From Dactylonectria macrodidyma (taxonomy: Eukaryota > Ascomycota > Sordariomycetes > Hypocreales > Nectriaceae): 64,000 nt of DNA. Positions 5,083-60,440 of this stretch are shown here, one piece after another (within the stretch, counting starts at the first letter, position 1; each line of letters begins with the position of its first letter). A program made the translations under genes and the position numbers. Under the pieces are notes generated by a model. That model saw only the letters and a list, made by a program, of their open reading frames with translations. It was not told the origin of the DNA and ran no database searches. The DNA is taken from positions 930,001 to 994,000 of the forward strand of contig JAGMUV010000009.1 of NCBI GenBank assembly GCA_020744425.1. The letters run 5' to 3'.

Positions 5083-7721
5083 ATGTCGAGAACCCCCTTC
5101 AGCGGGTTTGGCTTGCCTGGATCCAATAGAGGGCCATCAGGCGGAGGCCAACAGCCACATCCCCAGAGAGCACCGTATGGTGATCCTCGCCAGCAGCAGC
5201 CGCAAGGATACGGTGGCCAATACAACGATCCTCGAGCACAGCAAGGCAGGCCTCAGGGTGGTGGCTACGCCGACCAGCCTCGCTCGCCCGGTATGTCGCG
5301 ACACTTAGAGAAGCCCACTGGTGGTGGCAGAGAGGTTCCCTTGCGGGTTGAAAAGGTCACCGACAAGTCGCTCCAGTCCAGACTCATCTACGGCAACCTG
5401 TGAGTACCCTCCGCCTTTGCGAACTCATTGAGGACACATCTAATATAGGAGCCTAAACTTTAAGTTGCGCCGTTTCGCCCGATGACTTCCCCCCCAACCG
5501 CGACGGTTCCGATCTCTACATTATGCTTCGAGGTGGTCAGCCCGCTGGCGAATATGTCGTCACCGCCAAACCGGTTCCCGGCTTCCCTCCAGGCGGTATT
5601 AGCTTGACCGATCCTCAGCGATCATGGGCTGGCATTACCATGAGAGACACATTCACGGGTCAGATCTACGACCCATTCGCTACTGGAGGCAAGGCCTACC
5701 TTGGCTCGATTGATCTCGAGATCGGCTTCGCCTCACCAAACAAGAAGACCGAGGTTCCCTATGACGAGGATGAACTGTCTAAGATGTTCATTGACACATA
5801 TCAGAACCAGGTCCTCTCTCCGAGCCAGCGCATATTGATGGATGTCCGAAACATCCCTCTTCTCATCGTTGTCAAGACAGTCGGTCTCGTTGACCTGGCC
5901 ATGTCATCGGATGATTCTGGAAAACAAACTCACAGAGAACCCCACGCCCGTGGCATCTTAACTAGCCAGAGCCGAGTTCTCTTCCACCGCGATGGAAAGG
6001 GCGATTTCAACCTAAAGCCTTCCATGTCGAAGCCCAACTCCAACGCCATTCTCGCCCCCGACTTCAAGTTTGAGGACATGGGCATCGGTGGTCTAGGTGA
6101 TGAATTCGCTACCATCTTCCGTCGAGCCTTCGCGTCTCGAGTATTCCCCCCAGGCCTGGTCGCCAAAATCGGCATTCCTCACGTCAAGGGAATGCTGCTA
6201 TACGGTCCTCCTGGAACTGGAAAAACGCTCATTGCCCGTCAAATTGGAAAGATGCTAAACGCCCGTCCTCCAAAGGTTATCAACGGCCCTGAAGTGCTCA
6301 ACAAGTACGTTGGTCAGTCAGAGGAGAACATTCGAAAGCTGTTTGCGGATGCCGAAAAGGAGTACAAGGAGAAGGGAGATGAGAGTAGCTTGCACATCAT
6401 CATCTTTGATGAGCTGGACGCCGTATGCAAGCAGCGAGGTTCAGGGGCTGGCGGCGGCACCGGTGTCGGCGACAGTGTGGTGAACCAGCTGCTGTCTAAG
6501 CTTGATGGTGTTGACCAGCTCAACAATATTCTCCTCATCGGAATGACCAACCGAAAGGACATGATTGATGATGCGCTGTTGCGACCTGGTCGACTCGAAG
6601 TTCACCTTGAAATCTCGTTGCCCGATGAGGAAGGTCGCCACGAGATTCTCAAAATCCACACATCCAAAATGCGCGAGAACGGACTCCTAGACCCTGATGT
6701 TGACGTGGCGGAGCTTGCTGGGCTCACCAAGAATTTCTCGGGAGCTGAGCTGAATGGTCTGGTCAAGGCTGCGGCATCGTTTGCCTTTTCCCGCCATACC
6801 GAGGTTGGCCAGCTTGCCGCTGTCAAGCAAGACGTGGCCAACATGAGGATCAACCGCAGCGATTTCATGAATGCCTTGACTGAAGTCCGCCCGGCTTACG
6901 GCGTCTCTGAGGCCGAGCTTGAGGATGCTGTCCGTCTGGGTATCATCCCTTACGGTCCTCATATCAACCTGACCGTTCAGGAGATGATGCGCGTCGTTGG
7001 CATGATCAAGGAGGACCCTAACAAGTTCAGCACATCTGTCCTATTCCACGGACCCAGGGCATCAGGCAAGACAGCCCTGGCAGCGCACATTGCCATGCAG
7101 TCCGGATTTCCGTTTGTCAAGATGGTGACGCCGGCAGATCTTGTGGGATACCGCGACGACTTCGCCAAGAAGGACTACGTACACAAGGCTTTTGCGGACG
7201 CCTACAAATCGCCTGCCAGTATCCTGATTCTAGATGACTTTGAGCGCCTGATCGGTTGGAACCCTATCGGCCAGCGCTTCTCGAACGTCATGCTTGAAGC
7301 CCTGACAACTCTATTAGTTTCGAAACCGCCCAAGGTAAGTCGAGTCGTCTCAAACACTACCATTAACAATACTAACAGTATCACACAGGGTCACCGCCTT
7401 TTGATCTTCGTCACCTCCTCCAAGGCCTCTGTGCTCAGATTGCTCGAGATCGATATGGATTTCGCCAAGAGAGTGCCGGTACCTGCCGTGAACAGTTTGC
7501 AAGAGCTTGCCGTAGTATTGCAGGATTCCCGTATGTTCAACACAGCCGATGTGGGTCAGGCAATCCGCATTATCCAGGGGCGCACGGGCTCGGACCAGGT
7601 TGGTGTTGGCATTAAGACAATCCTCGACTGCATTTTCGAGGCACGGGCTGGAGGCAACCAGGAAGTACTGGAGACGTTCACGGACCTGCTTTGCGAGAAG
7701 ATCCAGGAGTTCAGGGGTTAG
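5083..7721 (+). CDS. SEC18: SEC18/NSF vesicular-fusion AAA ATPase
   Basis: Exons are 5083-5399, 5465-7334 and 7389-7721, giving 839 aa. Intron 1 (65 nt) starts GTGAGTAC. Intron 2 (54 nt) starts GTAAGT, ends CACAG, and is a multiple of three with no stop. SEC18/NSF is the hexameric ATPase that, with alpha-SNAP (Sec17), disassembles SNARE complexes after membrane fusion in the secretory and endocytic pathways. The order visible is a Gly/Gln/Pro-rich N-terminal tail, an N domain (GNLCAVSPDDFPPNRDG from about residue 104), D1 with Walker A GPPGTGKT near residue 352 and Walker B IIIFDELDAV, and a degenerate D2 with GPRASGKT near 633 and ILILDDFERL. Length and domain order match the family. The junction after GNL was chosen because it restores the N domain. 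Confidence 0.96.
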
Positions 7722-28008: not shown

Positions 28009-31000
28009 GTTTGTAGATATCGAATGGGTGTCGCTTGGTGGTGTTGTTTTGATCAAAGGAGTCGTCCCGTCTTCAGTGCGGGTGGTTGGCGGCATGCGAT
28101 GATTGCTGCGCGAGGTTTGAGGCGCGCGAAGAAGCACGTAAGATGGATGTGTGTTTGGTGATGGTGGATGGTGCAGCTGGTGAGATGTGAGATGTGAGAT
28201 GTGACGATGGTGCTGGAAAGAGGAGTCGAAATGTTTCGGGATGGGGGATTCGATTGCTATTTAATTTGATGGCGCGGACCAGGTCATGCCGTCACTGACA
28301 CATTGAGCCAGAGGTGGAAGGAACGGCATCCAAGCACCTGCCGACACACCCAAGACACCTAAGCAATCGTGGGCGTTGGGAGCTGTCCATGTGCCAGACC
28401 AGGCCTAGGCCTTGAGGTACATTGTAAGAGCTTCGCATGGGGGGCCCACCCACTACTCAGCCCTCCGCTGGCGGGGGTTTACTGGTCATTGGGCGCTACA
28501 AGGGTGCTCTGGCAGTGACTGGGGGACGGGTGCCTAGCAGAAGCCTAGCACCTTCGCCCACACTTTGCCCACTGTTCGACTACCTCTCTCTGTGTGATTG
28601 GCTTAGGCCTGCTTCAGTGTGGTTCAAAAGAATGGGGAACATGTGCGGGGCAGGGGACTTGGCAGGTGGTCAGTGGCGTCGTCCCACCGGATGCACGGCT
28701 CACACTCACCACCCCACCCGTACTCACTAAGATCAACTAGAGCTCCAGCGAGGCTCCAGCATTTTTACACACCCAAAGAGACAGGGCGTCGTCTCCTCAT
28801 TTGATCATCACTTTGTCACTGTGGATATCAAGCCTGCATCGTCCTGGCGATACGATGGATGCGACGATGCGACGATGCGACAATGCGAACACCGTCTCTC
28901 TCGCTCTCGCCCAGCTTCCCGCATCCGTCCCGCCCAAAACCATCCTCCAAGCCTCCCTCCTTACCCTCCCCAATAGCAAAAACAGCTCGCAGCGTTTCAA
29001 CCCACCCCTCGTGGAAACACCCCCTTCTCGTAATGTCCAGAGTGATTAGTCCACTTCACCCTCTCGGTTGCAGCGACATCCGGATACGATTCGTCCGCAC
29101 CCCTGTCGTAGAGTCTGGCAATTCTCATGACAACCCACATTCCAAGGTGATGATCAACAATCCAACTGTTCCTTCAGATCTACTACATTGACGCGGGGCC
29201 GCACATAAGCATTTGACGAGAAAGCCCAAATGAACCATTGCCTTGCCTTGCCTTGCCTTGCGTACTTGCTAGGTTCCAGGTATCCTGAAGGTCTGGGTAC
29301 CCAATTACCAACTTACCACACCGCTCCAACAACCTCCAAGCCTGTCGCAACTCATACTTCTTTTCGACACATACCACGCTCAACCCCCCACAAACTCACG
29401 AAACTCGCCCTGTTACTTACTGCCGAAGAGGGGACTGACAAAAGTGCTGTAAACCTAGCTCTCAACTCGCAGTAAAACCCGTCCAAAATTCCCGTCCGAT
29501 CTGCAAGGTGGTGTGCTGAACCGGAAGTCCACGACCCGATTCATCCAATCACGACGTTGGCGCATTATCGTCTCCTCTCGGAAGACCGGGAGCGTGACTT
29601 GCACTGCCTCTGCCCAGCACAACCCAATATCACCAATATCGACGTCAGGCCAAGAAGAAGCGAGCTTGGCGGTGACAATCGACCGATCCATTTTTTTTTT
29701 TCTGCCTTGTGAAATTTATTCAGATGGGGAAGTGGCCGAAAGCCGAAATCGAGGCCGTGTTCTTCGACCGTCGCCCGACCCCAGTTCTAGAATGCTTCTC
29801 GACTCCAGGTCTGGCCAGTTGCAGCGCCACAGCCTACATCTTTGCCACCAAGGTGCAGCCTCGTACCTTGAAATATGACGTCTGTTCCGTCCATAACAAA
29901 TTCCCAATCTGCCCCAGCTCTCCACAACGTCAGCGTAACACCGCCAATGAGATTCGAGATGCTTTAAATCAACCAGCACATCAATTGAAGGCTGAGCCTT
30001 CTTTCATTTTACAACCCACAACCAACATCCTTTCAATTTGCTTTTCCACCACCGCAGTCCACTTTAACCGCTGGGATCAGAGCCCGCCCCGACGCCTTGC
30101 GGCCCCACACCCGCCTTGCCTCGTCCTTCGCCTCCGAGGACCGGCCATCTTAAAGAAGAGATCCCCGATATCTTTTCCCATTCCATGCACATTTCCAGCA
30201 TGAACCATTCCAAGAGCGGTAATGATGATAATGAATTCCGCGAGGCAGAAACGTAGAAGTTCTCATAGAAGCTATCAGGTGATTCTTGTCTTACTCCGCC
30301 GCAAGCGATCTCCCAGGGCGTTGGAACACCTGGGCATAGCCACGAAAATCGTCCATGTTAGCCCAATGGCGCTTATTCCAAATGGGAGCCTGACTTACAC
30401 CCCCCACAAGCCTCTTCCTTCCCCTAAAATCAACATCTCCATCACAAGGCGGTGTTCTATTTCCTCAGCGCTTACTGTCATGGTCCTAAACGCTGACATC
30501 ATGGTCTGGACCAACTCAGGAGAACCAACACGTGCACTTTAAAGAGACAATTCTCGAATACGGTTCGAAATTTACCATTGCAATCTCGTTTGATCTTCTG
30601 CAAGGCTTTCACGATCCTAGCGCTGATTCCGGGGACTCGCTGCCCCAGTGACAGCCAAGTGGCGGAGGCGTACTCGTTCCATGGCGGTGCATTTTGCTTA
30701 TCTACTACTTCGACCAACCCCCTAATCAGGGACCATGTATGACAATGATTTAGCTACATTACCTCGTTGATCTACTGGATGAATAGTCTGCCTCGAGTCA
30801 TGGCCTGGTCCAAGGCAGAATCAACTTCAGCGTTTATTCAAGTGCTCTTGCTTATGCTGGCCACATGAGACTAGACTCCGCCGAGCTTGCGCATGTTCTC
30901 AGGGGATACATTCGGTAGAACCCTTGGTTTTGAAAAGAATGAAGTGCCTGGACTATATTCAACATGCGGCAGAATTTGCCATATAGCAGATCCCGAAACC

Positions 31001-31421
31001 AAAGTGTGAATGCCACGGTATAGGGTAAATCGCGCATGAAAAATCTCGCCTCAGCAGCTCTAGTAATGAAGCACCATGCGAATAGAAGGACTGGCGATAC
31101 TTAGGTCACACTCATTACAGGTGTCATGCCCAGTGTTGATCGAGCGGAGATGGTGGTTGGTGGCTTCGTGAGCCACTTACTTTTTTTTTACTTCCAGCTT
31201 CATCTGAGCTGTTGCTTGGCCCCTGGCTTTGGAGACCAATGTCTTGTCATCCCTTCAATGTCTTTTACCCATATTAGATCAATAATATGAAATAGGTGAA
31301 TAAGAAGATGTAGCAACACAAGTACGCCAATTTGCAATGTGGCTGATTGCGCTGCGGTGGGATGTGGTTAGGATGGTATGCTCTTAGTGGGCTTTTTCGT
31401 CGCAGAGTTCAACAACCGACG
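28009..31421. other. 3.4-kb gene-free interval with short tandem repeats
   Basis: No convincing gene was found. It contains three copies of TGAGATG at about 28,181-28,203, a GATGCGAC 8-mer repeat at about 28,857-28,886, five copies of TTGCC/G at 29,238-29,262 and a poly-T run at about 29,692-29,701. The first few hundred bases should be the stomatin-like promoter. A 164-codon plus frame at 29,709-30,203 has no family content and looks like chance. Confidence 0.5.
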
Positions 31422-31495
31422 TCCCCGATGGCGCAATTGGCTAGCGCGTTCGACTGTTAATCGAGAGGTTGATGGTTCGAGCCCATCTCGGGGAG
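31422..31495 (+). tRNA. tRNA-Asn(GTT), uninterrupted copy 1
   Basis: 74 nt with no intron. The acceptor stem TCCCCGA/TCGGGGA is fully paired with discriminator G. The D stem is GCGC/GCGC with loop AATTGGCTA, the anticodon loop is CTGTTAA (anticodon GTT), and the T arm is GATGG/CCATC with TTCGAGC. A T-rich Pol III terminator follows (TTTCTTTTT). Its upstream flank shares GAGTTC-AACAAC with the next copy 280 bp away, so the two look tandemly duplicated. The T stem carries an A50-U64 pair, unlike the copies at 32,611 and 35,164. Confidence 0.97.
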
Positions 31496-31703
31496 AGATT
31501 CCTTTCTTTTTGCGGTATTTCACGTATTGTGTGTGTGTGTCTGACGATGCGACAATATTGTGTGTGAAGTGTGTGGAGAACATGCAGGTCTTGACTCCCG
31601 TCCCACATTTTCTTCTCTTTTTTTTTTTGCTTAGCGAGGGTTTCGCCCCCACGTACGCTTAGCCACAATTATCGAGGCCGAGTTCCAACAACAACTAGCA
31701 ACA

Positions 31704-31828
31704 TCCCCGATGGCGCAATTGGCTGTAAGTTCATCAGTATCCTGTTTCTTCGTCTCCATTATAACATCATCAAAGAGCGCGTTCGACTGTTAATCGAGAG
31801 GTTGATGGTTCGAGCCCATCTCGGGGAG
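31704..31828 (+). tRNA. tRNA-Asn(GTT), copy 2, split in the D loop by a 51-nt GT-AG insert
   Basis: The two outer parts (31704-31724 and 31776-31828) join into a 74-nt tRNA identical in every position to the copy at 31422-31495. The insert 31725-31775 lies between D-loop base 20a and A21. Its boundaries are unambiguous and read GTAAGT...AAAG. A TATAAC branch-like site lies about 10 nt before the 3' end. The box A and box B promoter sequences are intact outside the insert, and a TTTCTTTTT terminator follows. The canonical nuclear tRNA intron site is 37/38, so this is not the normal tRNA intron class. Confidence 0.9.
31725..31775 (+). other. 51-nt spliceosomal-type intron candidate inside the tRNA-Asn D loop
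   Basis: Donor GTAAGT, branch-like TATAAC, 3' end CAAAG. Precise removal restores an intact D arm (GGCT + AGCGC). The length matches mRNA introns in this window (45-68 nt is common). Confidence 0.8.
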
Positions 31829-32610
31829 TCTCCGTTTCTTTTTGCGTGTCTTTACGTCTTGGTGCCGTGAATGACACTACACAATATCGTATATGTCCAT
31901 CACATGTTTGGCCGTCTCTCGACAGGAGACATGATGCAATTCATACGTTTTCTTCTTCATTTTTTTTCAGATCATGTAGAAGGAAGAATGGAGACTGGGA
32001 TGCGTCGCAAAGTGTATGATGTCCTCAGGTGGCGTCATTTGTTCGGAAGTCTGCTTGAGCTCAGACTCGCTCTAATTCCATCCATTACGAGGACTTCCGC
32101 TTAATTTATTTCTTTGGGCACAAGTCTTGTCAACTTCTCACAATGATGTGAGAAGCATATGGAAGCTTGTTGTGCTTATCCCCTTGCATAGCCTGGACGG
32201 CACATTTCAGTCGGTTTGTGTCGCTATCAAGCTCGAGACTTGAAGCCTTCACACGTCAGCCTTCATATATCCTCGAGATTTAAGTTGCTTAACATGAATT
32301 GCAAATTGTCAGTCTTTACTAAAAGAGCTAAATGAGGAAGAGGCTAATTGGTGATGTTGAGAGTACTGTCCAAGCTGCCTGAACTGGTGGCCAATCGTTC
32401 TATTAAGTAGAGGAAGGAAAACACATAGTGACACAGACACACTACCGGCATTGAAGGCGTGTCTCTGTGCACTCCAACTCTGAACCACAAGTGCGGAATC
32501 CTGCGTCGTGACGGACATCCCCATTGACGCGGTTGCACACCGTTTATCATAGGAGACGAAAAATCAATGGACAACACCGCCGAAGGGCAAAAAAGAACTC
32601 TGGAGACTAA
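31829..32610. other. Gap between tRNA-Asn copies 2 and 3
   Basis: About 780 bp with no recognisable gene. Chance frames up to 77 codons are present. Confidence 0.5.
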
Positions 32611-32740
32611 CTCCCCGAGGTGGGCTCGAACCACCAACCTCTCGATTAACAGTCGAACGCGCTCTTTATATGTTGTTAGAATGATTTCTCTAGAATGAAT
32701 ATGTAGAAGAGGAACTTACAGCCAATTGCGCCATCGGGGA
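32611..32740 (-). tRNA. tRNA-Asn(GTT), copy 3, split in the D loop by a 56-nt GT-AG insert
   Basis: On the minus strand the outer parts (32740-32720 and 32663-32611) join into a complete 74-nt tRNA-Asn with anticodon GTT. The insert 32719-32664 sits at exactly the same D-loop position as in copy 2, again with unambiguous GTAAGT...AAAG ends, here with a perfect CTAAC branch motif about 11 nt before the 3' end. The T stem carries G50-C64 (GGTGG/CCACC), a compensated change from copies 1 and 2 that keeps the stem paired. A T-rich Pol III terminator (TTCTTTTTT) follows on the minus strand. Confidence 0.9.
32664..32719 (-). other. 56-nt spliceosomal-type intron candidate inside the tRNA-Asn D loop
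   Basis: Donor GTAAGTTCC, branch TTCTAACAA, 3' end ATAAAG. It shares the first eight bases (GTAAGTTC) and an AACAT-like 3' region with the 51-nt insert in copy 2, but the middle differs. Confidence 0.82.
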
Positions 32741-33149
32741 CGTTGATTGGTTGGCATCGTCGAAAAATAAGCCTAACACCACCGGGTTCTGGGCACATAC
32801 ACAGGAGGTTGAACCGGTTTTCGTTGAAGGTCTAATAAATTGAGAGTGGTAGAAATGGTTTACGTCTGGTAATCACAATCGGAACATTGGACAAGAGATT
32901 GGCGTGAATGAGCAATTGTTCAAGGGGACGGTGAACGGAAAGCAGCCACAGTAAGAGCTCCAATGATGTCGGGTTTCAACAAAGCAACACTAAGAGATCA
33001 GGTCGCCGACAAAAAGGCAAGTCAAGGATAAAAGAAGTCGAGAATTGAACATCTTTCTTCCATAGATCTCGTCCACCATCTTCAATATAACTCTAGTTCG
33101 TGATGCCATTTCAACGCGGACACTGTTGGCATTAGAGCGAACTTGGCCG
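32741..33149. other. Spacer between tRNA-Asn copy 3 and the decayed membrane-protein gene
   Basis: About 410 bp with no recognisable feature. It presumably includes upstream sequence of the minus-strand tRNA. Confidence 0.5.
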
Positions 33150-34395
33150 AGTGGTGCCTCATGTATTCTAACTTATAACGTTGATGGCTGTTCATGCAAT
33201 GGCGTCCAAGATTAATCTTACAAAAGCCGTAAAACGCGCAATACTCCATGTGCCTGCCCGTTTGAACGCTGGGTGCGACTTGTGCTTGCAATAGCTGCCG
33301 GGATAACCGGGCTCATGCTATTGTTGCAACCCAACCCACAGCGATGTATGGAGGGTTCATGACCTTGAGCATGATGATATCCCACGTATTCCAGACAGCA
33401 AGCACGTAGTAGAAAAAGAAGAACCCTCGTACGTCACTTTCACCTTATGACCAGACCGATAATAGCATGCGGCTAAACCAAACAAAGCGAAACATTACCC
33501 AAAAGAAGAATTTTGCGAAGCACCAGTACGGCGGCTGCAGAAACTGGACAAGACTGGATCGAAATGAGATTTTGGTAACCTCCTTAGATTACTCTTCTTC
33601 CAAGGTTTTGAAGTATTCCTCTGACTTTTTACCCCATGCTTTCCATGTGTCCGAAGAGTTGCCTTGTTGGTCCGCGAAACTCCATATGAGAGCGGCTTCG
33701 TAGATGGCCAGGCCCGCGACCCATATTCAAGAGACTGGCGTAGCCTCATCCTTGTATGTCGCATCATTAAAATGGTAACACTTTTTGGGATCATTCTCGC
33801 CCCAGTGGTGGGGCTCCAGTAGAATAGACGAAGATGCCCAGGTAATTCCTAAGAGGACACTTACCAAAACCAGCAGTCTTCTCGTGTACACCCGCCATTT
33901 TGCCCAGGAGGTAGCATCCGAATCAGGATCTAGATTTTTGACAGCATCATAAATGCAGGCTCGCCGAGTAATCCAGAAGGAGTCTGAGGTTAGCTACCAA
34001 TATGCTGACACCATTTCCCGATGGTAAAAGGTGATTGTGTTCCATTGAGAGAATCCGGCCACCACGATAGCAGCATCTGTGATAACTTGGAGGTCGCAAA
34101 GAGGGCCGAAGGGGTATTCGGCGCCAAGAGCGAATCAATAACTAGTCCCTGTCAAGTTGACCTTTGAAGATGTGACAGTTGCAGCACCGGTCGTGACCTA
34201 TGCAGTCACGACGAAAGCGGTCATAACTTGTGCCATATTAGTGTTTGTGTCTAACAATCAGCATCATGAACTCACCCCAGCTCCAGCGATATCCGAATCC
34301 CCGGCATCTTATACTCGTTCTCACAGTCCACATAGTGATAAGCTCTCTACATGGTCGGAAGCCAGTTGACCGCTCGGGAGGCAGTTATTCTCTCA
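33150..34395 (-). pseudogene. Decayed multi-pass membrane protein gene
   Basis: No long frame survives, but the minus strand reads in linked segments as a fungal multi-pass membrane protein. From high to low coordinates these are CENEYKMPGIRISLELG, an intron-like GTGAGTTC break, ALGAEYPFGPLCDLQVITDA, AGFSQWNTITFYHREMVSAY, RRLLVLVSVLLGITWASS, GLAIYEAALIWSFADQQGN, YYVLAVWNTWDIIMLKVMN and PPYIAVGWVATIA. In-frame stops interrupt it (TGA where Trp is expected after TPVS and before FALGAEY; TAG after FVVTA). TGG-to-TGA and CAG-to-TAG changes fit C-to-T/G-to-A decay. The family resembles fungal integral membrane proteins of unknown function. The ends are approximate. Confidence 0.6.
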
Positions 34396-35163: not shown

Positions 35164-35237
35164 TCCCCGATGGCGCAATTGGCTAGCGCGTTCGACTGTT
35201 AATCGAGAGGTTGGTGGTTCGAGCCCACCTCGGGGAG
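35164..35237 (+). tRNA. tRNA-Asn(GTT), uninterrupted copy 4
   Basis: 74 nt, complete cloverleaf, no insert. The acceptor, D and anticodon arms are identical to copy 1. The T stem is GGTGG/CCACC as in copy 3. A T-run terminator (ATTTTTTT) follows about 13 nt downstream. Confidence 0.97.
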
Positions 35238-35440
35238 TCTACCTCGCATTCATTTTTTTGCTCTCTAACTGTATTTCCCTCATCAGCCGGAGCAGCACTG
35301 GCTGGGTGTAACTGTTATTGTACTGTGTACTGGAACTGTAATAGACTGTCTTCTACTTTAAGTTATACCTTTATAATCCTTTCTTTTTTACTAATTGCTG
35401 CTAACATCTGTTTATGAGATGTCTTATACTTTGGTATCTT
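35238..35440. other. Spacer between tRNA-Asn copy 4 and the inverted-repeat segment
   Basis: About 200 bp, increasingly AT-rich, with no recognisable gene. Confidence 0.4.
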
Positions 35441-35456
35441 GAGACGAAACTCAAGC
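35441..35456 (+). repeat. 16-bp inverted repeat, left arm
   Basis: GAGACGAAACTCAAGC. An exact reverse complement lies at 38,826-38,841. The arm overlaps a small palindrome (CTTGAG...CTCAAG). No clear target duplication is visible outside the pair. Confidence 0.7.
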
Positions 35457-36399
35457 GAGGTCTTAGTTGTCCTAGGTGGCCGCTTTTATGGCCCTCATCA
35501 CCTCCCGGCTCAGCTTCGGCTCAGTCTTTCATCAGCCCTCATCAGCTCTTACTCGCCCCTTAAGCTAAGCGGCCCTATTATTACTCCTGGCCCCAGTTCT
35601 GAGCTCTCGATCCTCAACCCACCCATGCACTACCACACCGGGGACGTAGGAATCACCTACATACTTTAGCCTTTCATCCCCCCCCATCAATTCCCCATGG
35701 TCGGGACCGGTTCCGATAATGAGGGGGTTGTGCCTTTAATAGGACAAGTCCTAGCGTAGGATGGGATTTTGGGCTTCGTACGAAACTTAAAGAATCACGA
35801 CTTTGTAAAGCGCCTCTAGCAACCCAAATTAAATTGAATAACCCAAATCAGAGCTCTTAAGTTATAGTGTAGACCTAAGTAGCCATAAATTTCACTCTCT
35901 TAATCATGCCGCTACATTATAAGGCTATGAAAGAGGCAATCCAGCATTCGAGTAACTAGGCATTTAAGTCCAGTAGGCTAATAACCTATAGCTATCTAGC
36001 AAGGAAACAATTCAACTTGTTTAACTTAACGCAATCCTGCCGAATAGTCCCCCATCCCTCAGTCCAAAACATAGAGAGAAAAAAAACAATTGCTTTCAAA
36101 ATTAGGGCTGAGTTAGAGGGAAGGACATTTCAATACTCGTTGCTCGAATGTTCAGATCAGACCTAAAAACCTCAAGACGCTAAAGTCTACCTTTTCCTAC
36201 TTTTTAAGACCCAGACCCATACTAAAAATACAGCCCCTCGGCCCTCTCCTCATATAGCATCTTCTCGAAGCATTCCATCTCATTAGGCAGCCCCCCGACG
36301 AATCTGTGCTTATTATATCGCGGGGTTAAGGCGGGTCGCTGCGGTGTGCTCGATGCTGCTTACGAGGTAGGGCATGATGTAGCCCTTGGGGAGCAAAGG
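35457..36399. other. RIP-like decayed stretch upstream of the NACHT remnant
   Basis: AT-biased and stop-rich. It begins with a GCTCAGCTTCGGCTCAG-like stretch similar in style to the one at about 38,690-38,810. The lost 5' half of the NACHT gene, including its P-loop, would be expected here but was not identified. Confidence 0.45.
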
Positions 36400-39331: not shown

Positions 39332-39421
39332 CTCCGGTACAGGGAATCGAACCCTGAGCTCCGCGGAACTGATCTCTCAGGTTATGAGAGCGCGAAATGT
39401 TAGCCATTACACCATACCGGA
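39332..39421 (-). tRNA. tRNA-Glu(CTC) with an 18-nt canonical intron
   Basis: On the minus strand the acceptor TCCGGTA/TACCGGA is fully paired with discriminator G. The D stem is GTGT/ACAT, the anticodon stem TCGCG/CGCGG, the anticodon CTC, and the T arm CAGGG-TTCGATT-CCCTG. The intron at 39384-39367 follows position 37, the standard nuclear site. Its removal leaves 72 nt, normal for tRNA-Glu. It serves as a local control showing that ordinary tRNA introns in this genome sit at 37/38. Confidence 0.95.
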
Positions 39422-39689: not shown

Positions 39690-39780
39690 GGTCTGGTGGT
39701 CTAGCGGTATGATTCTCGCTTAGGGAAAACCCTACAGCATAGCTTGCGAGAGGTCCCGGGTTCAATCCCCGGCCAGACCC
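39690..39780 (+). tRNA. tRNA-Pro(AGG) with a 19-nt canonical intron
   Basis: Acceptor GGTCTGG/CCAGACC, discriminator C, anticodon stem CTCGC/GCGAG and anticodon AGG. The intron at 39726-39744 contains CCCT, which can pair with the AGGG of the anticodon loop, as expected for substrates of the tRNA splicing endonuclease. Removal leaves 72 nt. A TTCCTTTTT terminator follows directly. Confidence 0.95.
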
Positions 39781-46597: not shown

Positions 46598-46999
46598 TGT
46601 GTTAGGCAGGGGGACAAGAGGGACACTACTACCTGAAGTGACGGATGCTGTAGGGTAGGCGGGATGCGTAGTAGAGCGAGGGTAAATAAGACTCATAAAA
46701 TAAAACAGATAAAAAGAAGGCCAGAGCCGTAATCGATCAGCTAGCTAAGAAATAAATCAGATATTCTAGTTAATTAAATAAATCTTATTATAATAATATT
46801 AAAAACAATTTAATAACTTAAAAATAAAAGTAAGTAAGAATATTATTAATTACTATCTATATCTAAGTTATCTCTACCTTTTATCTTAGACTAACTTCTA
46901 TTATCCTTATTAATAGCTTTATTAAGACTAGTACTTAAATTAATTAGCTAATTAAAATGTCTAGGCTATTCTAACTAGTAGGCCCTTAGTCTTAATACA
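46598..46999 (-). repeat. Gypsy LTR, left copy (3' LTR), less mutated
   Basis: 402 bp. It retains G/C-rich stretches such as GGCAGGGGGACAAGAGGGAC, which read GCAGGAGGATAAGAAGGAC in the other LTR. Most differences between the copies are C-to-T or G-to-A towards the right copy. Confidence 0.92.
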
Positions 47000-49900
47000 T
47001 TCCTCTTTATATAGTTAGCACTTTATCCCTATAAGCTTAAAGACTATAAATAATAAAGAGAAGAAAAGCCTTAATAAATAAAGAAAATAATAAGAAAAGA
47101 AAGATAATATATATAAATCTAATATCTAAGTATAGTTAATTAACTAGAATCTAGCTTATATTTATTCTTTTAAGATTATAGTATTTATAAAAGAGGGTTT
47201 AAAAGGAACCTAAGTACTAAGATTATATTAAAGATAGTAAGTAAAGTTATAAAAGTAGCTATAATAAGAACTCTTTAGTAAAATTAACTATAGAGTGTAT
47301 AAAGAGACTAGAAAGTATTTAATTAAATAGTATCCCTTAATAAATTAAATAATTAAGATATATTAATAAGTCTAATAAGTATAAAAGTAGATAGTAATAA
47401 TAATCCTTAAGTAAGTCTTAAAAGCAAAGTATAAATTAATTTATATATAGTAGTATGATCAGCCTAAGAGGGCCTAGTAAGAGGAGGAGGAGCTAATCTT
47501 AACCTTAAGGTATTTATAATAGTATCCTATTAAAATAGAGAAATCAGACTATTTAAAATAAAAGTAATAAAGCTTCTTATTTAATTAATTATATATATCT
47601 ATTAGTAAGGGGCTAAGAGTAAATAAAAAGACTTAGTAATATATATAATTATAATATAAGTAAGAGTATTAATATTATTCTTCTTTACTACTTCTATAGC
47701 TTTTTTAACTATTAATTTAGTAATATAAACTCTTTTAATTCTATTTATAAGTACTTAGTTAAGAATAGCCTTAGTATAATTATTAGTATAAATAATTTAA
47801 TTATTAGCTTTCTTCTTTAATAAAGCCTATTTTATAATAATATTCTTATTAGTCTTCTTTTACTTCTTATTAATAGTCCCTTCATTTAAGTCATTAGAAT
47901 TACTATAGTTATTACTAGCTACTAGAGTAAGAGTTATATAAAGCAGAACTATTTAATTAAATAAATCTATAATACTTAAGCTAAGTTTAGAAGTAAATAG
48001 TAGAATTAAAAGAGTTCTAAAGCATTAGGATTTTAAAGTTACTACTAGCTCTAAGTCCTGTACTAATTAGTTAATAAGTTCCTAGTTAGTATTAAGAGTG
48101 TATAGAATAGTTATATAAGATTTAAATAAGTCAGAGGTTTTAATAATTTAACTTAGTTTAAAAAGAGTAATAGACTCTTTAAATATTATAGTATTAGTAA
48201 GTATAATTATTAATTAAGAGTCCTTAGTCTAGTTCTTAATAGTAAGAAAGTTAATTTAGTAAATTAACTAATAGCTGCCTAGTTTAGTAAGAATAATAGT
48301 AAGTCCTTTAGGTAGTAAACTGTAAATAGAGTAATAAGAGAAAGGCATAGAGGATACTGCTTTACTATGCCTATATTTAGTAATAATAACTTTTCTAAAC
48401 CTAAGTTTATTATAAATAGCTATTAGAAACCAGGTCTTAACCCACTCTTAGCTAATAGAAAGAATGACTTTAAATAGCTTAAGTAATTAATTAAATAGAC
48501 TAATAAGCTAATCTCTTTATAAAAAAGCATATTCTCTTTCTATTAGTTACTTCTTAATGCTTAGAGTTACTAAAGATAGATTTATATATAAATAGACTCT
48601 AAGTCATATAGCTTTAATCATACTTTATAAGTTTAAGAATATAAAGTAAATAGCTAAGTATCTACATTCAAAACTGCTTAGTTAATTAGCTATAAGAATG
48701 CAAAATATATTAAAGTCATAAGAATAGCTTATTTTAATTAAAACTAAGCACTAAGTATAAGTAAATGCTTTCTAGTAATTAAATAAGGTATAACCTCCTA
48801 AAGTATTATAATAAAAGACCTAGTTAAAGTATTAATTAAAGATATATAATACTTAGTAAAAGTCCTTATAATTAACTAAGCTAACTATAAAATACTAATT
48901 AAAAATATCCTACTTAATAGTATAGTAGCTAAAGTTATAGTAAGAGTTTAGTATATATTTAATAATAAAGTCTTTAAAGAGCAAGTACTTATATATTTAA
49001 TTAACTAAATCTATTATCTTCTTAAGTAAATTTATTATAACTATAGAAGCACTATCTAGAAGCAGGGTTAGAAATACTATAATAATATCCTCTAATCTAT
49101 ATATAATTATAATTAGAAAGTCTTTAAGTCCTTCTTTACTAGCCTAAGCATTATCCTATAGCTTTTTATAAAAGTCTTAGAAATAAAGAATATATTCTTT
49201 CTAAAATACTCTAAAGAGTATAGTATTATCTTTATATAAAGGTTATACTAATATAGCCTTTATAAACTTAAAGTCTTTATAATTACTATATATATTAATT
49301 ATCCTTTCTTTATTAAACTCAGGCTATTTTATATAAAAGTATAATAAGGCTAGTTAATTAACTATAATATCCTTTAGCTACTTAACTAAGGATAATTCTA
49401 AAGTATAATAGAATAATCCCTTTCTATAGTTAATAATAGCGATTTCCTTACTTTAAGTAGTATAGGCCTTTAGTAAGAAGTAGGTTTATTTATTATTAAT
49501 AGGACTGCTTATAGTAAAAGCACCTAGTAAGAGGAAGAGTAAAGGATTTATTTAGAAGAAGGCTAAATTAAAAGGTAGTTATTTAGTAATAACTTATTTA
49601 ATTAACTAAATTATAAAGTCATTTAGTAATCTAATATTATAATAATAATAAGATGAAGGGAATAGAAGGTTATAGTTAAAAAGGAGGGTTTTTACTATAG
49701 TTAGTAATAAGGTTTTAAAAATAGGTTTTTTAAGACTAAGTAGCGCAGGCTTGTGAGTATTAGTAAGGCAGGCAGAAATGAAGGTAAGTAATTAGCTTAA
49801 AGAAGTAAAAGGATTAAGAAGTAGAAGGTTATAATAATAAGGTTCTTATAGTAAGTAGTAAAGAGAGATTAAAAGTAAAAGCTTAGCTAAGAGGAAAGGG

Positions 49901-59015: not shown

Positions 59016-59417
59016 TGTATTAAGCAGGAGGATAAGAAGGACACTATTACTTAAAGTAATAGATACTATAAGGTAAGCAGGATATGTAGTAAAGTAAAAG
59101 TAGATAAGACTTATAAAATAAAATAGATAAAAAGAAGGCTAGAGCTATAATTAATTAGCTAGCTAAGAAATAAATCAGATATTCTAATTAATTAAATAAA
59201 TCTTATTATAATAATATTAAAAATAATTTAATAACTTAAAAATAAAAGTAAGTAAGAATATTATTAATTACTATTTATATTCGAATTATCTTTACTTTTT
59301 ATTTTAGACTAACTCCTATTATCTTTATTAATAGCTTTATTAAGACTAGTACTTAAATTAGTTAGCTAATTAAAATGTTTAGGCCATTCTAGCTAGTAAG
59401 CCCTCAGCCTTAACACA
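59016..59417 (-). repeat. Gypsy LTR, right copy (5' LTR), heavily mutated
   Basis: 402 bp, the same length as the left copy. It starts TGTATTAAGCAGG and ends CTTAACACA. Confidence 0.92.
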
Positions 59418-60440
59418 GTACTTAATATATTCTTTAATAATATTCAGAACTACTAAGAAGCTAAGAGCACTTATAAGAATACTAAGCCTATAGTTCTATA
59501 ATATCAGCTAAGTAAGTATAACTAGAAGATTATTAAAATGCTAGTTAAGCTTCTAAAGCCTTTTAAGGTTATTACTAAGCAGCTTTAAGGCAGTAGTATT
59601 CCTAGTATAAGATCGACTTATAGTAACTTTAATAAGTACTTTTCTATCTTTAAAATGCTCTTTAACTACTTTAAAAATACTATTAAAAGTATAATCTATA
59701 AAGAAGTTAAGAATCTAGTAAGTAAGAGAAGGAAAGATATTAAAGTTACTATTTATATAAGACTTAATAATAGAACTTATAAATTATTTAAGGTTTTTAT
59801 TAAGCTTAGGTAGAAAAAGCTTTATAAGTACTATGCCTTTCTAACTAGTATTGTATATATAAGCACTATTGTCTTTAACTTGGTGAAGAAGTGGTGTTTT
59901 CTTAACTAACTATAGTCTTAAGTTCTTATTTATAAGGTATAGGGTTAGTAAGCTGATTATAAAGAGAAGCTATTATAGATCTAAGAGAATAGCTATAAGT
60001 AATATAATATTAATAATAAGGTCTTTACTATAATTAGTAAGGCTTTAATAGATTATATTTAATACAGGCTTATTAAGAGTATTATTAGCTTAGTATTTAT
60101 TATTACTTCTAATCTTTATAAGACTATATATAAGGTAAAATAGATAATTATAGTAATAGCGATTAATAATGAATATTCTAAGTACTATATTAAGAATATT
60201 ATTAATAGTTAGTATTATAAAAGCAGACTAATTAACTAGTAAAAGACTAATGCTTATTAGTACTTATAGCTATTTACTATAACTATTAATATACTTAGTA
60301 TTCTATTATTATCTATAGAGAGTAAGAGGATATTTAATAGTATAAGGCTTATAATAATACTATTAAGAAATCAGTTAGAGAAAAAGATAGTAACTATAGA
60401 TTAATGCCTTTAATTATAAAGTAAGACTAGGATTTATATA
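59418..60440 (+). pseudogene. hAT transposase, C-terminal part, decayed
   Basis: Continues the frame broken at 46,597. KLYKYYAFLTSIVYISTIVF near 59,819-59,878 and VKKWCF near 59,884 match the hAT block LxKYYxLTxxxPVYxxxxxLxPxxKW. AYQYLQLFTITINILSILLL, SIESKRIFN and LEKKIVTID at about 60,250-60,400 correspond to the hATC dimerisation domain (the NILSIPAxSxExERxFS pattern). Many TAA/TAG codons sit where Gln/Trp would be. Finding N- and C-terminal parts on the two sides of the Gypsy element proves the nesting order. Confidence 0.85.

Follow-up and report, generated by a model that had tools for sequence, protein, structure and literature searches.

Seven nuclear transfer RNA (tRNA) genes in the genome of the fungus Dactylonectria macrodidyma, three for tRNA-Asn and four for tRNA-Phe, are interrupted at position 20/21 of the D loop by inserts of 51-56 nucleotides (nt). 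The likeliest interpretation of their sequences is that they are U2-type spliceosomal introns (we put the probability at about 0.88), which the spliceosome would remove from an RNA polymerase III (Pol III) precursor to leave a normal tRNA. The first of these genes, a tRNA-Asn gene that we call g1, lies in a 64,000-nt stretch of DNA (the window; C77:930001-994000, on contig JAGMUV010000009.1), and the initial annotation of this window had already proposed that its insert is a spliceosomal intron in a tRNA gene. The proposal is strengthened by what we found in the rest of the genome: seven genes of two isotypes keep a donor, a branch site and an acceptor at one position, the inserts have counterparts in U6, U3 and messenger RNA (mRNA) introns, and the bulge-helix-bulge motif of canonical tRNA introns fails to fit in its canonical register.

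Interrupted tRNA-Asn and tRNA-Phe genes

The features of g1 and of a second interrupted tRNA-Asn gene in the window, g2, are as follows (window positions).

31422..31495, + strand: intact tRNA-Asn gene, identical to the mature g1 sequence (ARAGORN; Rfam RF00005, 63.9 bits)
31704..31724, + strand: g1 exon 1, tRNA-Asn(GUU) positions 1-20a, identical to 31422-31442 of the intact copy
31711-31722, + strand: g1 box A, TGGCGCAATTGG, inside exon 1
31725..31775, + strand: g1 GT-AG insert, 51 nt, delimited by comparison with the intact copy (donor GTAAGT, 31725-31730; branch-like TATAAC, 31760-31765; acceptor AAAG, 31772-31775)
31776..31828, + strand: g1 exon 2, positions 21-73, identical to 31443-31495 of the intact copy
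31807-31817, + strand: g1 box B, GGTTCGAGCCC, inside exon 2
31839..31843, + strand: TTTTT, Pol III terminator-like run downstream of g1
32720..32740, - strand: g2 exon 1, tRNA-Asn
32664..32719, - strand: g2 GT-AG insert, 56 nt (GTAAGT...CTAAC at 32675-32679...AAAG)
32611..32663, - strand: g2 exon 2
32589..32594, - strand: TTTTTT, Pol III terminator-like run downstream of g2
35164..35237, + strand: intact tRNA-Asn gene, identical to the mature g2 sequence (ARAGORN; Rfam RF00005, 63.5 bits)

When the two exons of g1 are joined they are identical to the intact gene at 31422-31495 over 74 of 74 nt, as had been claimed for the flanks of the insert. The insert edges at 31725 and 31775 are exact and unable to slide, because the insert starts with G where exon 2 starts with A, and ends with G where exon 1 ends with T. 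The initial annotation was also right about the GTAAGT...AAAG ends with a TATAAC branch-like site, and about box A, box B and the terminator being intact; all of them were located at the positions listed above. The longest T run in the g1 insert is 3. The combination of GTRAGT, a branch-like motif and AG at a fixed length of 51, 54 or 56 nt occurs at only 2, 1 and 1 positions, respectively, among the roughly 127,900 that the two strands of the window offer, and the counts at 51 and 56 take in g1 and g2 themselves.

We used the 151-base interrupted g1 gene, including its insert, to search the whole genome (77.3 Mb in 77 contigs), without requiring a donor. The query found six places, all of which were scored, and all six are tRNA-Asn genes: three interrupted (g1, g2 and g3) and three intact (C77:961422, C77:843306 and C77:965164). 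The interrupted genes have a common insertion site and common types of signal, with different insert bodies. No recent copy of the g1 insert was found elsewhere in the genome, because at E 0.001 the query matched nothing other than these six genes, and for the same reason we rejected the idea that the inserts are introner-like mobile copies.

Gene g2 (32611-32740, - strand) is 0.9 kb from g1, and its joined exons match the intact gene at 35164-35237 over 74 of 74 nt. ARAGORN, run with introns allowed, labels g2 as a tRNA-Cys gene with an anticodon-loop intron, which is a mislabelling, and it does not report g1 or g3. Gene g3 (C45:556822-556964) has a 54-nt insert at the same site as g1 and g2, and also an 11-nt insert at position 37/38. 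Once both inserts are removed, the only differences from the intact gene are at two paired acceptor-stem positions, where an A-U pair has become the G-C pair G7-C66, which is a compensatory change. The inserts of g2 and g3 start with GTRAGT, contain CTAAC or CTGAC, and end with AG. The existence of these further interrupted copies contradicts the possibility, raised in the initial annotation as a reason to abandon its proposal, that g1 is a lone dead copy.

The tRNA-Phe genes came from searches with patterns combining box A and a donor. Box A plus GTRAGT matched 69 places (27 and 42, with 51 and 65 in the reversed-pattern controls), and box A plus GTATGT matched 39 (reversed control, 25). All 69 GTRAGT places were put through a T-stem and acceptor-stem filter, which kept the three tRNA-Asn genes, one tRNA-Phe gene (L069, on C11) and one further place, L090, which we rejected by eye as a tRNA gene. 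Eight of the 39 GTATGT places were read; three are tRNA-Phe genes (L166 on C1, L167 and L168 on C45), all reading TAGCTCAGTTGGGGTATGT, and by eye the other five contain no tRNA gene. The four tRNA-Phe genes yield one identical joined product of 73 nt, called as tRNA-Phe(gaa) by ARAGORN. In tRNA-Asn and tRNA-Phe alike the insert adjoins A21 on its 5' side (position 20/21); its edges are set in the Asn genes by the intact copies, and in the Phe genes by tRNA-Phe structure only, with no intact copy seen.

Two other searches of the genome were made: an Rfam tRNA search in which the best 63 of 2246 candidates were scored, leaving out at least some tRNA-Val genes, and a search with an eight-tRNA query in which 40 of 61 candidates were scored and which cannot reach half-gene matches. 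The Asn pattern gave 2 matches in IMG/VR and 32 in GTDB, and none of these 34 has a tRNA-Asn anticodon arm or box B; the Phe and 3'-junction patterns gave 0 matches in IMG/VR.

Splice signals and reference introns in the same genome

The lengths and signals of the seven inserts are as follows.

g1: 51 nt; donor GTAAGT; branch motif ATAAC; acceptor AAAG
g2: 56 nt; donor GTAAGT; branch motif CTAAC; acceptor AAAG
g3: 54 nt; donor GTGAGT; branch motif CTGAC; acceptor GAAG
L069: 54 nt; donor GTAAGT; branch motif CTAAC; acceptor ACAG
L166: 54 nt; donor GTATGT; branch motif CTAAC; acceptor GCAG
L167: 55 nt; donor GTATGT; branch motif CTAAC; acceptor GCAG
L168: 55 nt; donor GTATGT; branch motif CTAAC; acceptor ACAG

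Every insert has the hallmarks of a U2-type intron: GT...AG boundaries, a GTRNGT-like donor, and a CTRAC-like branch motif 10-20 nt before the acceptor (CTAAC or CTGAC in six of the seven, ATAAC in g1). Removal of the segment that starts at the GT and ends at the first AG located 5 nt or more beyond the branch motif produces the exact tRNA in all seven genes, with the 5-nt limit having been fixed after g3 was seen; the first AG overall is the right acceptor in six. Across the seven inserts the longest T run is 3, as a Pol III transcript requires, and T runs of at least 5 lie downstream of all seven genes. Box A and box B are intact at all seven loci, which are on four contigs. The features of a functional tRNA gene (cloverleaf, boxes and terminator) are present, with joined g1 and g2 equal to intact genes and the Phe genes called as tRNA-Phe(gaa) with one mismatch.

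We compared the insert interiors, leaving out the first 6 and last 18 nt of each, with shuffled controls. Similarity among the three Asn interiors is not above that of shuffles (p = 0.633, 0.067 and 0.562), nor is that of L069 to the other three Phe interiors (p = 0.19, 0.644 and 0.7). The three Phe inserts on C1 and C45 are clearly related (p = 0, 0 and 0.001). Gapped alignments of the unrelated pairs give raw interior identities of 0.49-0.56. The exons are identical or changed in pairs, while the insert bodies mostly diverge and the signals persist.

For comparison we mapped 14 other introns in this genome. Six are in mRNA genes and were placed by protein alignment (VMA6 has three, a stomatin-like gene two and SEC18 one); U3 and U6 account for four each. 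Proteins encoded in the window have their closest matches in Hypocreales, mostly in Nectriaceae, among them Dactylonectria estremocensis for the stomatin-like protein (97%), D. macrodidyma for Sec18 (97%) and Fusarium torreyae for VMA6 (94%). A branch-like motif starts 14-19 nt before the acceptor in 12 of the 14 introns, the exceptions being SEC18 (25 nt) and one VMA6 intron with a weak motif at 36. Five of the 14 share one of the three donor hexamers of the tRNA genes, and the rest are looser (for example, GTACGC and GTTCGT). Lengths range from 51 to 124 nt, with the U6 introns at 51-54 nt, and the SEC18 intron ends with AAG, like the Asn inserts. In length, branch distance and type of signal the tRNA inserts therefore match the U6, U3 and mRNA introns of the same genome, which supports a spliceosomal origin.

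U6 small nuclear RNA (snRNA) is made by Pol III, and in Schizosaccharomyces pombe the intron of its gene holds an essential box B. Both U6 loci that we found (L017/L057 at C34:3697181 and L018/L058 at C56:1255336) read by eye as two GT...CTAAC...CAG inserts flanking a 9-nt piece, AGAGAAGAT; against the Rfam model both fall slightly short of the gathering score, and their alignments do not take in the 5' part of the model. If these are working U6 genes, the spliceosome of this fungus already processes Pol III transcripts. Box-B-like stretches are present in the U6 introns (TTCGAACC in intron 1 of both copies, and in intron 2 TTCGATTCC in one copy and TCGATTCC in the other), so U6 promoter elements may lie inside the introns. 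Four loci for the small nucleolar RNA (snoRNA) U3 were found (L112-L115, on C17, C5, C56 and C34), two of them below the Rfam cut-off, and each has one GT-AG intron at a common site with a differing body (57-124 nt), which repeats the pattern of fixed site and differing bodies seen in the tRNA genes. The U6 search scored the best 47 of 4305 candidates and the U3 search the best 48 of 472, so these copy numbers are lower bounds.

Some other features of the region were noticed. There are three SEC18 genes (window 5083-7718, C4:382347-384982 and C76:358141-360776), which match one protein at 91-99% by piece, the C4 match counting one internal TGA. Triplication is odd for a housekeeping gene and perhaps reflects duplicated or hybrid segments. 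No second copy of the 10-kb stretch around the tRNA cluster, comparable to the SEC18 copies, was found in the genome. Beside the tRNA cluster, segments some 60-170 bp long within window 35427-35608 have counterparts at seven further genomic sites, with 73-81% identity, and may belong to an old dispersed repeat. A direct repeat of 415 bp, 86% identical, occupies window 46598-47012 and 59016-59430.

Alternative explanations and a proposed splicing pathway

Several points weigh against a spliceosomal interpretation. Both the splicing of the inserts and the activity of the interrupted genes are predicted from genomic sequence, and since there are three intact tRNA-Asn genes, nothing requires the interrupted Asn copies to be functional. 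Each of the three Asn introns ends with AAG, a weaker acceptor than YAG, and the g1 branch motif is ATAAC rather than CTRAC. In all four Phe genes the joined tRNA has one G-A mismatch in its acceptor stem. Because these genes came from searches with donor patterns, their donors do not count as independent evidence, and in two of the three pattern searches the totals were no higher than in the reversed controls, so only the reading of each place counts. The Rfam tRNA search scored the best 63 of 2246 candidates, so intact tRNA-Phe genes may exist, and the search gives no count of them or of other isotypes. T runs of 4-5 occur in intron 1 of both U6 copies, which a strict Pol III terminator rule disfavors, although tolerance of T runs varies among fungi. 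In g3, a shifted register gives three of the four bulge-helix-bulge pairs, so a relaxed form of that motif is possible there.

The interrupted genes might instead be dead or dying copies whose inserts are merely intron-like. The intact tRNA-Asn genes would make such a loss tolerable for Asn, but we consider this improbable: all seven genes retain tRNA-forming exons (one of them through a compensatory pair) although the interiors are mostly at shuffle-level similarity, two isotypes have the signals at the same position, and a terminator-like T run follows every gene. Gene conversion among exons could contribute to their conservation, yet it would still have to preserve both halves of the tRNA around an insert that diverges. 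We therefore rejected pseudogenes as the main explanation, on the contrast between exon conservation and divergence of the insert bodies. An assembly artefact is also unlikely, because the seven loci are on C77, C45, C11 and C1 and their inserts differ in sequence. Self-splicing group I or II introns were rejected, because an Rfam scan of the window at gathering scores returned only the two intact tRNAs, and 51-56 nt is too short for either group.

A very improbable alternative, in our view, is that the inserts are non-canonical tRNA introns cut by the tRNA splicing endonuclease, as are archaeal introns at 20/21 and the D-arm introns of red algae and nucleomorphs. Archaea do have introns at position 20/21, and Cyanidioschyzon has them in the D arm (PMC4090602, PMC9602550). 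The central helix of a canonical bulge-helix-bulge, however, has 0 of 4 pairs in each of the three Asn genes and 0, 1, 1 and 1 of 4 in the Phe genes; for the Asn genes, where nine registers were tried, the best reach 2, 2 and 3 of 4, the Phe genes having been scored in the canonical register alone. The elements that are conserved are U2-type splice signals, which that enzyme does not read. The inserts lie directly before A21 and not at 37/38, the site of introns cut by the tRNA splicing endonuclease (TSEN), and only g3 has a second insert at that canonical position. Two other tRNA genes in the window have canonical introns, as the initial annotation had recognized; ARAGORN places both in the anticodon loop:

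39332-39421, - strand: tRNA-Glu with anticodon-loop intron (ARAGORN)
39690-39780: tRNA-Pro with anticodon-loop intron (ARAGORN)

In the predicted precursor folds of g1 and g3 the D stem is retained and encloses the insert, which is not so in g2; the folds carry little weight because the same program fails to give the full cloverleaf for intact tRNA-Asn. Hardly credible at all is the idea that the inserts are spliced from Pol II transcripts that cross these loci, with the tRNA-like exons as parts of a long transcript. It would account for the mRNA-type signals, and the same spliceosome would act, but no stop-to-stop open reading frame of at least 150 amino acids overlaps 30204-34392, the region around the window copies g1 and g2, and each of the seven loci, on four contigs, has its internal promoter boxes and T-run terminator intact.

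If the inserts are spliceosomal introns, the pathway might be as follows. With box A upstream and box B downstream of the intron, TFIIIC and Pol III would transcribe the whole gene as far as the T run. Binding of U1 to the donor and of U2 to the branch site would be followed by ligation of exon 1 at the first AG that lies at least 5 nt beyond the branch motif, giving the exact mature D loop. In g3 the 11-nt insert at 37/38 would then be removed by the tRNA endonuclease and ligase. This step would probably come second, after the spliceosome has acted, because the endonuclease reads a folded D arm. We think it probable that introns were first inserted into the exposed D loop and that gene conversion then carried them from one gene copy to others. 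We suggest only tentatively, as something that may well prove too strong, that nuclear tRNA genes are established as a class of spliceosome substrates in this lineage of fungi, that its tRNA-Phe supply is wholly spliceosome-dependent, and that one or more tRNA-Asn precursors have to pass successively through two unrelated splicing machineries.

Comparison with known introns in small RNAs

In standard accounts, tRNA splicing is independent of the spliceosome. A 2026 review of non-canonical splicing likewise treats tRNA splicing as spliceosome-independent (PMC13149111). No report of a spliceosomal intron in a nuclear tRNA gene was found in the open PMC full-text literature, as judged by titles and the starts of abstracts, a scope that takes in neither subscription papers nor preprints and does not prove priority. 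If tRNAs are made by the spliceosome in this fungus, the split between tRNA splicing and the spliceosome would be broken, and a new host RNA would join the Pol III spliceosome substrates, which have so far consisted of U6. Such genes would make it possible to test cleanly whether splicing requires capping or Pol II, and tRNA gene finders would miss them, as ARAGORN does here. Translation of Phe and Asn codons would be linked to splicing capacity, and if tRNA-Phe is wholly spliceosome-dependent, translation of UUU and UUC would be tied directly to spliceosome activity.

Canonical nuclear tRNA introns resemble these inserts in being located inside nuclear tRNA genes, and g3 has one of 11 nt, but they lie at 37/38, whereas the inserts lie at 20/21 with GT-AG and branch signals and without the canonical bulge-helix-bulge register. 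The non-canonical tRNA introns of archaea, nucleomorphs and Cyanidioschyzon are likewise outside 37/38, and include archaeal ones at 20/21 as well as D-arm introns. In the excerpts of PMC4090602 and PMC9602550, however, they are tied to the tRNA endonuclease and a bulge-helix-bulge, or are only 3-24 nt long (Guillardia nucleomorph), and those excerpts describe no set of GT, branch and AG signals. The archaeal introns at 20/21 listed in PMC4090602 have bulge-helix-bulge motifs, and the string "spliceosom" is absent from that paper.

The closest counterparts are in other non-coding RNAs. According to PMC5832005, frequent interruption is known among small structured RNAs for U3 and U6 only. The introns of fungal U3 snoRNA genes described there are, like the tRNA inserts, short GT-AG introns with a CTAAC-like branch site in a structured non-coding RNA, though the host is not a tRNA. 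Fungal U6 introns, in S. pombe and others, similarly combine GT-AG boundaries and a branch site within a short structured Pol III RNA; there the host is a spliceosomal snRNA, whereas here it is a tRNA.
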